Assembly (NCBI GenBank): GCA_944324625.1
Contig: CALUWZ010000031.1
Span: 1-13,628, forward strand
DNA from: an uncultured Mailhella sp.
Lineage (GTDB): Bacteria; Desulfobacterota; Desulfovibrionia; Desulfovibrionales; Desulfovibrionaceae
Direction of reading: 5' to 3'
Length of the DNA: 13,628 nucleotides
Below are positions 4,430 to 13,298 of this stretch, one piece after another. A program made the translations under genes and the position numbers. The notes under the pieces were generated by a model, which was given only the letters and a program-made list of their open reading frames with translations, did no database searches and was not told the DNA's origin. The first letter of the stretch is position 1, and the number at the start of each line of letters is the position of its first letter.

Positions 4430-5920
4430 TTATCTTTTTTTCTTTTTCTTTTTATCTTTGTCGCGTTTTTTCTTGGTTGCGGAACTGCCGCGTGTTCCCG
4501 GCATGCCCGGAAATCCGCCAAGGCCCGGCATGCCGCCGAAACCTCCCAAACCGCCCATTCCGCCAAGATTATTCATGCCGCCGAGCTGGTTCATGTTGGG
4601 CATGGACGGCATTTTGCCTTTTGTGCCCTTCATAAGGCCTGACATCATTTTGCGCATCTGCTCAAACTGGCGCAGAAGCTGGTTGACGTCCTGAACTTTT
4701 GTGCCCGAACCGTTGGCAATGCGGACTTTTCGGGAAGGATTGATAATGTCGGGGTTGCGACGTTCCTTCATGGTCATGGAATTGATAATGGCCTCTGTTT
4801 TGGCAATTTCTTTTTCATGGCCTTTCATCTCGCCAAGCTGTTTTGCAATGCCGCCAAGACCGGGAATAAGTTTTAAAATTGACTCAAAAGAACCCATGGA
4901 ACGCATGCGTTTCATCTGCGTGCGGAAATCTTCCAAATCAAATTTTGCTTTCTGCATTTTTTTGGCAAGCGCTTCGGCTTCTTCCTGTTCCATGGTGCTT
5001 TGGGCTTTTTCAAGCAGCGTAAGCACGTCGCCCATGCCGAGTATGCGCCCTGCCACGCGTTCGGGGTGGAAAACTTCCATTTCGGAAAGCTTTTCGCCCA
5101 TACCCACGAATTTTACGGGGGCACCTGTGACGGATTTAATGGAGAGGGCTGCGCCGCCCCTTGCATCGCCGTCCATTTTGGTAAGCACTACGCCGGTAAT
5201 GCCGATTTGCTGATTGAAGGAATCAGCTACGGTTACGGCATCCTGACCTGTCATGGCATCGGCCACAAACAGGGTTTCCTGCGGTTTTGCCGTTTCTTTG
5301 ATGGCTTTGAGTTCCTGCATGAGCGCATCGTCAACGTGCAGGCGGCCTGCAGTATCCAGAATGACAACGGTGCATTGCTTTTCTTTTGCGTCCAGAAGAG
5401 CATTTTTGACAATGTCAACAGGCTTCATGTCAGCTTTGGACGGATAGCAGGGAATATCAAGCTGTTTGGCGAGCGTGCAGAGCTGCTCAATAGCCGCAGG
5501 ACGGTATATGTCGGCAGGAACAAGGTAAGGCTTCATTTTCTTTTTGCGAAGCAAAAGGGCCAACTTACCTGAGGATGTGGTTTTACCGGAACCTTGTAAG
5601 CCTGCCATAAGAATAACGGCAGGTTGCTGGCCCTGTAAATTTAGTTCCGTGCTTTCACCGCCAAGCAGGTGCACAAGTTCGTCATGAACAACTTTAATAA
5701 CCTGCTGCGCCGGACTGACTCCTTTCATCACAAGCGTGCCGAGGGCTTTTTCTTTTACGGTGTCGGTAAATTCCTTGACAACCTTAAAGTTGACGTCAGC
5801 CTCGAGAAGAGCCAGACGCACTTCGCGCATGGCTTCCTGAATGTTTTCTTCCGTAAGCTGCACACGTCCGCCGAGGGTGCGGAATACTCCGGAAAGTCGG
5901 TCAGTTAAGCTTTCAAACAT
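4430..5920 (-). CDS. ffh: Signal recognition particle GTPase Ffh
   Basis: Ffh binds signal sequences and 4.5S RNA and delivers ribosomes to FtsY at the membrane. The 496-residue protein shows the full order: an N-terminal helical domain (1-90), then the G domain with GLQGSGKTT (107-115), the insertion-box region near DIYRPAA, DTAGR (189-193) and TKMD (247-250). The methionine-rich M domain (about 325-430) includes the RNA-binding stretch around RRNPDIINPSRKVRIANGSG (387-406). The tail beyond 431 is long: Gly/Met/Pro-rich repeats to about 476, then a lysine-rich end encoded by A-rich codons. The ATG at 5920 follows AGGAT at suitable spacing. It heads the ffh-rpsP operon. Confidence 0.98.
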   Translation of the reverse strand: MFESLTDRLSGVFRTLGGRVQLTEENIQEAMREVRLALLEADVNFKVVKEFTDTVKEKALGTLVMKGVSPAQQVIKVVHDELVHLLGGESTELNLQGQQPAVILMAGLQGSGKTTSSGKLALLLRKKKMKPYLVPADIYRPAAIEQLCTLAKQLDIPCYPSKADMKPVDIVKNALLDAKEKQCTVVILDTAGRLHVDDALMQELKAIKETAKPQETLFVADAMTGQDAVTVADSFNQQIGITGVVLTKMDGDARGGAALSIKSVTGAPVKFVGMGEKLSEMEVFHPERVAGRILGMGDVLTLLEKAQSTMEQEEAEALAKKMQKAKFDLEDFRTQMKRMRSMGSFESILKLIPGLGGIAKQLGEMKGHEKEIAKTEAIINSMTMKERRNPDIINPSRKVRIANGSGTKVQDVNQLLRQFEQMRKMMSGLMKGTKGKMPSMPNMNQLGGMNNLGGMGGLGGFGGMPGLGGFPGMPGTRGSSATKKKRDKDKKKKKKR

Positions 5921-5974: not shown

Positions 5975-6043
5975 AAAGTGCATTACGTCAAGAAAAAATA
6001 AAGTGTTTAAAAATATTTAACTTTTTAATGATAATTTCTGTAT

Positions 6044-6086
6044 AAAATTTAGACAGGCAAAATTTTTGCTGTGCAAATTTTAGACA
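6044..6086. repeat. Direct repeats flanking a palindrome, candidate enhancer-binding sites
   Basis: AAAATTTAGACA (6044-6055) and AAATTTTAGACA (6075-6086) are near-identical and 31 bp apart, about three helical turns. Between them lies the dyad GCAAAA-T-TTTTGC (6057-6069), which overlaps a second one, TTTGC-TGT-GCAAA (6065-6077). The block sits 81-123 bp upstream of the predicted start at 6167, the usual distance for activators of sigma-54 promoters. No specific activator is identified, and AT-rich DNA raises the chance of fortuitous repeats. Confidence 0.4.
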
Positions 6087-6140
6087 ATATTTTTTACAGC
6101 AGTAAAATATAAAATGAATAAAATCAATGAATTGTTGTTT

Positions 6141-6156
6141 TGGCACATTGTTTGCT
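6141..6156 (+). promoter_or_regulatory. Sigma-54 (-24/-12) promoter
   Basis: TGGCACATTGTTTGCT matches the TGGCACG-N4-TTGCW consensus at 11 of 12 informative positions, with GG (6142-6143) and GC (6154-6155) exactly 10 bp apart. Transcription would start near 6167. No protein gene begins directly downstream; a terminator follows at 6234. Confidence 0.6.
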
Positions 6157-6166
6157 TTGTTATTGT

Positions 6167-6260
6167 TACCTCTCTAAAATGAAGCATTACTTACCAAACA
6201 GGTAAAGTACTCCTTCCTATCTCCCCTTATAAAGCCGCCTTCCCCTGGGCGGCTTTTTTT
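6167..6260 (+). ncRNA. Candidate sigma-54-dependent small RNA
   Basis: The predicted RNA of about 94 nt runs from the -24/-12 start to the T-tract of the terminator at 6234-6260. It contains a first hairpin (ACTTACC 6189-6195, loop AAACA, GGTAAAGT 6201-6208, one bulge). An unpaired pyrimidine-rich segment (6210-6228, ACTCCTTCC and TCTCCCC) follows, then the terminator stem. ACTCCTT is complementary to AAGGAGT, the ribosome-binding site seen before htpG and flgF in this window, so base-pairing with translation starts is plausible. An alternative sigma-70-like promoter (TTGCTT at 6152, 17 bp, TAAAAT at 6175) would give a shorter RNA from about 6187. It could also be a terminated leader of ychJ, though 79 nt separate the terminator from that start. 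Confidence 0.45.
6234..6260 (+). terminator. Intrinsic terminator
   Basis: GCCGCC (6234-6239) pairs with GGCGGC (6248-6253) around an 8-nt loop and is followed by seven T. No + strand protein gene lies upstream in this gap, so the terminator implies a non-coding or leader transcript. Confidence 0.85.
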
Positions 6261-6338
6261 GGTTTTTTCAAGCATAAAAAAGACTTGTCAATTGAAAAAA
6301 GAAAGTGCAATATACACAAAAAATTTTGGAGGAACATT

Positions 6339-6836
6339 ATGAGCCTTTGCCCCTGCGGTTCACAATTGGAAGATAAAGACTGCTGTCTGCCCATTCTTGA
6401 AGGCACCAAAAAAGCTCCCACAGCAGAAGCTTTGATGCGTGCGAGATATACTGCTCATGTAATGAAAAAATATGACTTTCTGGTGGAAAGCGCCCACCCT
6501 GAATTCCGTGATGATGTAAATCCTGCGGAAATTGAAGAGTGGTCATCTCTTATGGATTGGAAATCTTTGGAAATTCTCGATACCAAAGACGGCCTTGAAA
6601 GTGACGAAACCGGTGAAGTAAGTTTCTGCGCTCATTATACCGTGCGTGATTTTCCTCAGGAACTTCGCGAGGATGCATTTTTCCGCAAAGAAGGCGATAC
6701 ATGGTATTATGTTGACGGCACTGTGCACGGCAAAGAGCCGGTGCGCCGTGAAAGCCCGAAAATCGGAAGAAACGATCCCTGTCCCTGCGGAAGCGGCAAA
6801 AAATACAAGAAATGCTGTGCAAAAAAAGAAGCATAA
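6339..6836 (+). CDS. ychJ: YchJ-like protein with two SEC-C zinc motifs
   Basis: The 165-residue product matches the YchJ (UPF0225) layout. An N-terminal SEC-C-like motif MSLCPCGS...CC (C4, C6, C15, C16) is followed by a central NTF2-like domain (about 25-135) with [20 protein letters not shown] and [11 protein letters not shown]-terminal SEC-C motif [18 protein letters not shown] (C148, C150, C159, C160) ends the protein. SEC-C motifs bind zinc, and the C-terminal one resembles the SecB- and ribosome-contacting tail of SecA, but YchJ has no settled function. The start is the ATG at 6339 after GGAGGA; the frame is open further upstream only from a TTG at 6285 without a ribosome site. A possible -35 (TTGTCA, 6285) suggests its own promoter. 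Terminator follows the stop. Confidence 0.88.
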
Positions 6837-9755: not shown

Positions 9756-10241
9756 ATGAAAAAAATTCTTAGTGTATTGGTTTTGTCCTTGTCCCTGACA
9801 GCTTGCAACTCCGCAAAAGAAGAAAATGTTGCGGTTAAAACTGAAACTGAGTCCGCGCCCAAGCTCGCGGTAAAAAAAGAAGCACAAGAATTATCCGCTC
9901 AGGAAAAAGCCGTATATGAAGCATTGGCGACTTTTGCCCGCAGTCATATCAAAAAAAGCAACAATAATATTATTCCCAATAAACGCGCCCCAAAAGTTGA
10001 AAAGAAAAATAATATGTATGTGGCCAGTTATGTGGAATTTGATCCTGACAGCCTGAGCATGGAACTTATTCCCACCCCGCACAGACAGTATAAATATCTT
10101 GCAAAAATCAAATACCGCGAACGCCTTTTCCAAAGCAAGGCAGAAACCAAAAAGCTTGCTTTGAACGGTGATTTCAGTGTAGTCGGCAGCCGTTTCATTA
10201 CCGAAGTGCCGAGATACAAACAAGGTAAATGGTGTTATTAA
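9756..10241 (+). CDS. Putative lipoprotein of unknown function
   Basis: I do not recognise the family. The 161-residue product starts with a lipoprotein signal, MKKILSVLVLSLSLTAC, with lipobox L14-T15-A16-C17; Asn at +2 suggests release to the outer membrane. Residues 18-55 are a charged Lys/Glu/Ala linker and are likely disordered. From about residue 58 a compact domain follows (ALATFARSHIKKS, YVASYVEFDPDSLSMELIP, YKYLAKIKYRERLF) with alternating strands. It ends in a Lys-rich stretch and WCY. The ATG at 9756 is preferred over the in-frame one at 9732 because GGAGAG precedes it and the signal peptide begins there. It lies 121 bp after the VWA-OmpA gene, both being envelope proteins, and ends at its own terminator. 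Confidence 0.72.
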   Translation: MKKILSVLVLSLSLTACNSAKEENVAVKTETESAPKLAVKKEAQELSAQEKAVYEALATFARSHIKKSNNNIIPNKRAPKVEKKNNMYVASYVEFDPDSLSMELIPTPHRQYKYLAKIKYRERLFQSKAETKKLALNGDFSVVGSRFITEVPRYKQGKWCY

Positions 10242-13246: not shown

Positions 13247-13282
13247 GTTAACAGGGATAAAAACAGAAAGATTTAAATATTT

Positions 13283-13298
13283 TGGCATGCTCTTTGCT
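13283..13298 (+). promoter_or_regulatory. Sigma-54 promoter for flgF
   Basis: TGGCATGCTCTTTGCT matches TGGCACG-N4-TTGCW with GG (13284-13285) and GC (13296-13297) exactly 10 bp apart. Transcription would start near 13309, giving a leader of about 66 nt before flgF. Sigma-54 control of rod and hook genes is common in flagellated bacteria. Confidence 0.78.

Follow-up and report, generated by a model that had tools for sequence, protein, structure and literature searches.

A predicted sigma-54-dependent small RNA gene with its own enhancer pair between ffh and ychJ in a genus of Desulfovibrionaceae

The divergent genes ffh (4430–5920, − strand) and ychJ (6339–6836, + strand) are separated by DNA that contains an intrinsic terminator, and since ffh lies on the − strand this terminator has no gene upstream of it on the + strand, which raises the question of what transcript it ends. 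An initial annotation, which drew attention to this orphan terminator, had proposed that the block encodes no protein and carries a sigma-54-controlled small RNA with enhancer sites of its own and a conceivable link to motility. We examined this proposal in the window, i.e. the whole 13,628-nucleotide stretch analysed, which is contig C31 of a 1.80 Mb draft genome (G000; 237 contigs, 88.7% complete), and across a genus sample of six genomes (G000–G005), of which five (G000, G001, G003, G004 and G005) bear the RNAs described below and one (G002) is without them. The gene names used here (ffh, ychJ, uvrA, flgF, htpG, flagellin, symporter) were read off translations. Comparison between genomes shows positions 6039–6260 to have the composition of a stand-alone small RNA gene, with a predicted sigma-54 promoter, a pair of enhancer sites, an RNA of ~90 nt (RNA-A) and a terminator, arranged as follows:

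6039–6055, + strand: enhancer site 1, TGTATAAAATTTAGACA (TGT-N11-ACA), −128 to −112 from +1, with 12/17 positions invariant in five genomes
6070–6086, + strand: enhancer site 2, TGTGCAAATTTTAGACA (TGT-N11-ACA), −97 to −81 from +1, with 7/17 positions invariant in five genomes
6140–6155, + strand: sigma-54 −24/−12 promoter, TTGGCACATTGTTTGC, matching TTGGCAC-N5-TTGC with 0 mismatches
6167–6256 plus T-tract, + strand: predicted small RNA (RNA-A), ~90 nt, with its predicted +1 at 6167
6167–6181, + strand: open 5′ stretch of RNA-A, UACCUCUCUAAAAUG, with 15/15 positions invariant
6181–6216, + strand: hairpin 1, from folding, with an outer stem GAAG/CUUC and an inner stem around CUUACC/GGUAA
6217–6230, + strand: CU-rich linker, CUAUCUCCCCUUAU, with 12/13 positions invariant over 6218–6230
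6231–6260, + strand: intrinsic terminator with the CU-rich loop UUCCCC, from a terminator scan, with one compensatory A-U/G-C pair
6285–6313, + strand: sigma-70-like promoter of ychJ, TTGTCA-N17-CAATAT, downstream of the terminator, identified by reading

The promoter bears out what was first claimed for it, namely exact GG–GC spacing, and GG and GC recur with identical spacing (GG-N10-GC) in 5/5 RNA-bearing genomes. The paired repeats are likewise real, with the correction that site 1 starts five bases before the interval of −123 to −81 originally given for them; the two sites lie 31 bp apart in the window and 31–32 bp apart in all five genomes, the second being weaker in some relatives. Within the window, two sigma-54 promoters with at most one mismatch (6140–6155 and that of flgF) compare with 0.68 expected, at least two being obtained in 27/200 shuffles, and a shorter sigma-54 pattern allowing two mismatches occurs 12 times, fewer than in shuffles (17.8). 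Taken in the window by itself the promoter match is accordingly suggestive, and the case is carried by comparison between genomes. The terminator scan returned 26 terminator-like sites in the window, that of RNA-A among them, versus 17.6 in shuffles; the segment 6166–6260 has a folding z-score of −5.25, with 0/200 shuffles as stable.

Promoter and RNA are both kept in close relatives, being present in five of the six genus genomes. RNA-A lies upstream of ychJ in each of these five, with ffh on the other side in four (the G004 contig stops short of ffh). Invariant positions across the five genomes amount to 75/90 in the RNA, 10/17 in the promoter region, 9/53 in the spacer between enhancer and promoter and 0/10 in the ten bases before +1, and 11 nucleotides intervene between TTGC and the first conserved base of the RNA in 5/5, even though the intervening bases are themselves unconserved. 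Identity of RNA-A to its relatives is 0.99 in G001 and 0.88 in G003, with the neighbouring coding DNA of ychJ and ffh below it (0.87–0.88 in G001 and 0.82–0.83 in G003). Such a pattern, in which conservation sets in abruptly at the predicted +1, resembles that of a promoter and its RNA maintained together by selection; the sequences of G003 and G005 hardly differ in this region, such that the five genomes count as about four independent sequences. The sixth genome, G002, offers a natural empty site within the genus (L164), in which ffh and ychJ are adjacent without the RNA module and a scan of the 600 bp before ychJ found no TGT-N11-ACA, sigma-54 site or terminator.

The layout originally envisaged for the RNA, i.e. 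a hairpin, an unpaired anti-Shine-Dalgarno segment and the terminator stem, agrees in part with the predicted fold: UAUCUCCCC in the linker is open (0.98 unpaired in 5/5 genomes), whereas the pairing of CUUC with GAAG leaves ACUCCUUCC less than half open (0.42 unpaired). Further open CU-rich stretches of RNA-A are the terminator loop UUCCCC (0.84 unpaired) and, at the 5′ end, ACCUCUCU (0.99–1.00). Changes on both sides of a pair affect 1/21 pairs of RNA-A, located in the terminator; hairpin 1 has none, so covariation is no proof of it. The internal ATG frame of RNA-A is short (eight codons in three genomes, six in two) and unconserved, consistent with a block that holds no protein gene, and an RNA-encoded peptide was ruled out because this frame breaks between genomes.

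A second locus of the source genome has the same plan:

Contig C28 of G000 (L053:1608–1930), − strand: predicted RNA-B gene, between a sodium:amino-acid symporter gene and uvrA

Here a two-site enhancer and an exact sigma-54 promoter are followed by a gene-free stretch of ~150 nt and a terminator, and the arrangement occurs in the same five of six genus genomes as RNA-A, with the enhancer sites 32 bp apart in 5/5. An exact GG-N10-GC stands at constant distance from the RNA in all five genomes for RNA-A and in all five for RNA-B, and a TGT-type pair with 31–32 bp spacing is found in 10/10 modules under a relaxed pattern, the second sites being partly degenerate. RNA-B has no visible sequence relation to RNA-A; common to both are the enhancer pair, the promoter type and CU-rich stretches. 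Of the latter, in RNA-B, CUGCCUCC is predicted to be 0.68–0.96 unpaired and ACUCUCCUU 0.04–0.89, the lower figure reflecting two genomes in which it is nearly all paired, and the open CU-rich motifs that RNA-A has in both linker and terminator loop are present in RNA-B only partly. Compensatory changes occur in 5/31 predicted pairs of RNA-B, all five in its first hairpin, and the covariation evidence for its predicted structure is stronger than that for RNA-A (1/21); its fold energy is unremarkable (z −1.88).

How distinctive this arrangement is can be judged from the other promoters of G000. The exact 16-bp promoter pattern occurs at eight places, seven of them non-coding, before flagellin-like, ZraP-like and other genes. 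With up to one mismatch it occurs at 76 places, and when 48 distinct sequences with flanks were classed, 12 fell outside coding DNA, among which only the window site is followed by a terminator with no gene intervening; the promoter on contig C28, whose 16-mer is the same as that on contig C3, was judged apart from this classing. The second gene of the same design lends good support to a sigma-54 small RNA at the window locus, and RNA-A and RNA-B would appear to be a real and new pair of RNA genes, sigma-54 small RNAs as such being already known. Of the original proposal, the sigma-54-controlled small RNA gene and its dedicated enhancer sites are thus well supported, by modular conservation as well as by RNA-B, and the link to motility, considered below, is unsupported.

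The range of both RNAs was explored with covariance models (R1 for RNA-A, R2 for RNA-B) run over 288 genomes of the family under strict filters. R2 matched the five genus genomes only. R1 matched ten, i.e. the same five and five others; in these others, and at a further G003 locus, what aligns is the terminator (27.7–30.5 bits), and these six terminator matches were rejected, the 60 nt before each of them being free of sigma-54 sites. This search, which had been recommended at the outset, therefore recovers RNA-A in the five genus genomes and gives no convincing match outside the genus among the 288; since strict filters lose weak matches, diverged relatives may exist there. Weak matches to a 231-base query in coding DNA (G001:C10, G004:C81) and in intergenic DNA (G040:C13) were attributed to chance, with no sigma-54 consensus nearby. 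Fourteen genomes outside the genus with a full-length ychJ match (L165–L178) have no comparable module in the ychJ region: two possess a terminator, L169 has two loose sigma-54-like sites and L174 a poor TGT-N11-ACA, and in none are these combined. The plasmids searched gave no match. Rfam yields 0 matches at gathering score in the window, and the initial impression that no described RNA is present holds as far as Rfam goes; the best sub-threshold matches (21.7 bits for RNA-A against a cut-off of 75, 25.1 for RNA-B against 50) mostly cover the terminator. No report of these RNAs was found in the accessible portions of a largely open literature on sigma-54 and Desulfovibrio small RNAs (PMC11124144 included), Taurinivorans and ZraR, and the term 'small RNA' is absent from the Taurinivorans paper (PMC10507020).

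A pattern scan of named genomes placed RNA-A in three genus records, DONZ01000011.1 (MAG UBA8003), JARHYD010000053.1 (labelled Mailhella sp.) and CASGAP010000001.1 (uncultured Desulfovibrionaceae); a fourth stretch, in a MAG labelled Heimdallarchaeota, lies inside an apparent GTPase gene and was judged a chance match. The available text of PMC10507020 assigns UBA8003 to Taurinivorans muris and gives a G+C content of 43.6% for that species, compared with 43.7% in the window. The host genus is apparently Taurinivorans, on evidence that is good but indirect. It includes, again from the available text of PMC10507020, the isolate T. muris LT0009, which makes predictions about the RNAs testable by ordinary RNA work.

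With regard to the activator, 59 enhancer-binding proteins were collected from five genomes, G005 being left out (9 in G000, 8 in G001, 15 in G003, 14 in G004, 13 in G002). Regulator clusters 0–4 are present in all five genomes, cluster 5 is missing only from G001, and clusters 6 and 7 are missing only from G000, which is incomplete; because every cluster common to the RNA-bearing genomes is also found in G002, presence and absence single out none. A weight matrix built from 16 RNA-A and RNA-B enhancer sites was scanned over the regulator loci (321,573 bases). Matches of at least 16 bits were found only beside cluster 2, a ZraSR-like pair, in G000 and G001 (17.9 each, of 22.8); the corresponding match is 13.5 bits in G003 and poor in G004. 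At 10 bits the matrix gives 32 matches in regulator loci versus 34 in one shuffle, and the upstream activating sequence (UAS) pattern occurs in G000 barely more often than when reversed (6 and 9 versus 6 and 7), so that the case for the activator depends on the highest-scoring sites and on where they lie. Eleven distinct UAS-like sites with at most two mismatches were found in G000, five of them roughly 60–125 nt upstream of a sigma-54 site; these five represent three of the nine loci tested together with the two window sites.

Upstream of the gene that diverges from cluster 2, GG-N10-GC lies 41–67 bp before the start in 5/5 genomes (G000–G004), and TGT-N11-ACA within 180 bp in G000, G001, G003 and G004, the latter element being absent in the RNA-less G002. 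The best NCBIfam models for the cluster 2 kinase and regulator are ZraS and ZraR, with scores below the equivalog cut-offs, whilst the divergent gene passes the cut-off for Metal_resist (ZraP family) in G002 only, falling below it in G004 (24.0 bits) and G003 (13.6 bits) and giving no family match in G000 and G001. These observations point to a ZraR-like response regulator as the candidate activator of the RNAs, at odds that we would place slightly short of evens, and the enhancer motif tentatively hints at envelope-stress control. That some other enhancer-binding protein found in the genus (e.g. of clusters 0, 1, 3, 4, 5, 6 or 7) instead drives a CU-rich sigma-54 small RNA has an even chance of being correct. 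Allowing for gaps in the drafts G000 and G001, the RNA-bearing genomes considered have eight regulator clusters, and in D. vulgaris, according to the available part of PMC4641369, three regulator-motif groups share TGT/ACA half sites (9/11/12 bp); against such a regulator stand the restriction of sites of at least 16 bits to the ZraSR-like locus among the regulator loci scanned, and the presence of TGT-N11-ACA at the ZraSR-divergent promoter in 4/4 RNA-bearing genomes examined and not in G002.

Other sigma-54-type loci were observed in G000. On contig C5 (L044:2373–2930, + strand) a UAS, TGTATAAAAATTGAACA, stands 121 bp upstream of a sigma-54 promoter with an exact match; a leader containing a strong inverted repeat comes next, then a 94-aa protein of secreted appearance, and related DNA is found in three of the six genus genomes (G000, G001, G004). 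On contig C101 (L064, L065) two tandem, near-identical combinations of a sigma-54 promoter and the start of a ZraP-family gene (Metal_resist, 43.1 bits) lie ~1 kb apart with no TGT-N11-ACA upstream, and on contig C83 (L200) a sigma-54-like site and a 190-aa ORF are preceded, 142 bp upstream, by a UAS-like TGTATCATTTTTTTACA.

The explanation that we favour, with a probability of roughly 0.78, is that of a stand-alone small RNA gene, one of a pair under sigma-54 and an enhancer-binding regulator (with a ZraR-like protein as the candidate), whose CU-rich RNA would repress translation without Hfq. In outline, an NtrC-type enhancer-binding protein would bind the two TGT-N11-ACA sites and activate sigma-54 polymerase at 6140–6155; transcription would start at ~6167 and end at the terminator near 6256–6260; and the resulting RNA of ~90 nt would most likely pair, via its 5′ CCUCUCU, the linker UAUCUCCCC and the loop UUCCCC, with AG-rich ribosome-binding sites. 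Such pairing would lower the translation of several messages independently of Hfq, and RNA-B, placed under a like enhancer pair and promoter, would act jointly with RNA-A. Base-pairing of RNA-A with ribosome-binding sites, considered on its own, is a proposition that we regard as evenly balanced. Repression of several messages is favoured by the CU-rich layout, which resembles that of LhrC, taken together with the failure to find Hfq, for which 0/6 genus genomes were positive in a search that was positive in 5/14 controls, the drafts being partly incomplete.

Candidate targets were sought among 856 ATG sites with an SD-like stretch in the DNA fragments examined, many of them not real genes, and none was convincing, repeated or conserved. 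The initial annotation had connected the RNA with motility through flgF, which has a sigma-54 promoter (13282–13297, 91–93 bp upstream of the start; conserved in G001 and G003) and the ribosome site AAGGAGT. The same AAGGAGT precedes htpG in the window, and the complementarity is that of ordinary ribosome-site sequence; with a match no longer than that of htpG, and of the ordinary SD kind seen at window ribosome sites, flgF was rejected as a specific target. At the putative flgF-pairing segment RNA-A reads ACUUCUUCC in G003 and G005, a variant that weakens the pairing (−13.1 kcal/mol in G000, −8.9 in G003). The lipoprotein gene at 9756 was also rejected, its full-length duplex of −26.4 kcal/mol having failed in G003 with open stretches alone.

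An unlikely alternative is that RNA-A is a decoy that titrates a protein via its CU-rich stretches, and not an antisense regulator. Decoys of this general kind are exemplified by CrcZ, which titrates Hfq–Crc. Several open CU-rich stretches and the lack of a detected Hfq are in keeping with such a role, and known sigma-54 RNAs include decoys, such as GlmY for RapZ in the available text of PMC7073468. Against it, the CsrA motif GGA is absent from RNA-A by reading, which rules out a CsrA decoy in particular. We know of no matching binding protein in this organism. It is very unlikely that the block is a cis-acting leader of ychJ, composed of an attenuator and an anti-SD stretch able to cover GGAGGA at 6328–6333. 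RNA-A does lie directly upstream of ychJ in 5/5 genomes and is able to pair with the ribosome site of that gene, but the CU-rich stretches match ribosome sites generally; moreover a sigma-70-like promoter (TTGT...CAA[TA]AT, 17-nt spacer) stands between terminator and ychJ in all five genomes, if weaker in G004, RNA-B has a like design elsewhere, before uvrA, and in G002 ychJ still follows ffh although the RNA is absent. A decayed or chance arrangement of a relic promoter and an unrelated terminator would suit the absence of the module from G002 and from the other genera searched, but is scarcely credible given an RNA more conserved than neighbouring coding DNA and a constant spacing to +1.

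Sigma-54 promoters fire only once an activator is switched on, and an RNA placed behind one is for that reason a clean read-out of a single signal. On the favoured reading, i.e. two translation-repressing RNAs switched alike in a lineage without detectable Hfq, the pair would form a small test case for Hfq-free small RNA pairing, and would also bear on the significance of the activating signal for a taurine-respiring, sulfide-forming bacterium of the mouse gut.

Several known systems bear comparison. For D. vulgaris the available part of PMC4641369 describes four sigma-54 non-coding RNAs in a regulome of 36 regulons, with TGT/ACA half-site motifs and with DVU0653, DVU0679, DVU1419 and DVU2359 as the regulators of the RNAs, DVU1419 being listed with envelope stress; the available part of PMC3333781 places Dv_sRNA2 under DVU0679. 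RNA-A and RNA-B resemble these RNAs, by description, in bacterial family and in the pairing of sigma-54 regulators with stand-alone RNA targets, whereas neither the RNA-A nor the RNA-B model had a convincing match beyond the genus among the 288 genomes of the family. Kazakov et al., in the text available, associate regulators of non-coding RNAs with free-living species; T. muris is a gut bacterium. GlmY has a sigma-54 promoter with QseF acting at three TGTN12ACA sites and is homologous to GlmZ (PMC6075780, available portion), and the GlmY/GlmZ–QseEF (GlrKR) system shares with the present one a sigma-54 small RNA promoter and several TGT...ACA sites; two-component control and a cell-envelope role would be further likenesses. 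In contrast, RNA-A and RNA-B have two TGT-N11-ACA sites each and are not visibly homologous to one another, and the Rfam models of GlmY and GlmZ are not among the matches to the window, RNA-A or RNA-B.

In the LhrC family of Listeria, CU-rich open motifs pair with AG-rich ribosome sites, and the functions characterised earlier are independent of Hfq (PMC13350326, available portion). RNA-A is similarly built of a stem-loop and a terminator loop joined by a single strand, with several open CU-rich motifs; unlike RNA-A and RNA-B, which have no Rfam match to LhrC, LhrC members are highly similar homologues with known targets. To our knowledge, the LhrC family has no sigma-54 promoter. The likeness to ZraPSR lies in the divergent arrangement of a ZraS/ZraR-like pair and a ZraP/Spy-like gene, the latter behind a sigma-54-like promoter (PMC4987338, available text); the rows consulted in the table of that review name only zraP and zraSR under ZraR. 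An RNA target would be new for such a system, and the Zra-like scores here are below the equivalog cut-offs.

The most far-reaching form of the proposal, which we consider doubtful, is that a Zra-type system in Hfq-less gut Desulfovibrionaceae might, in response to envelope stress, switch on through sigma-54 two unrelated CU-rich RNAs that shut ribosome sites and at the same time induce a ZraP/Spy-like periplasmic chaperone, the whole having evolved within one genus. Were this so, the circuit would be an independently evolved sigma-54 counterpart of the sigma-E/MicA–RybB arm.
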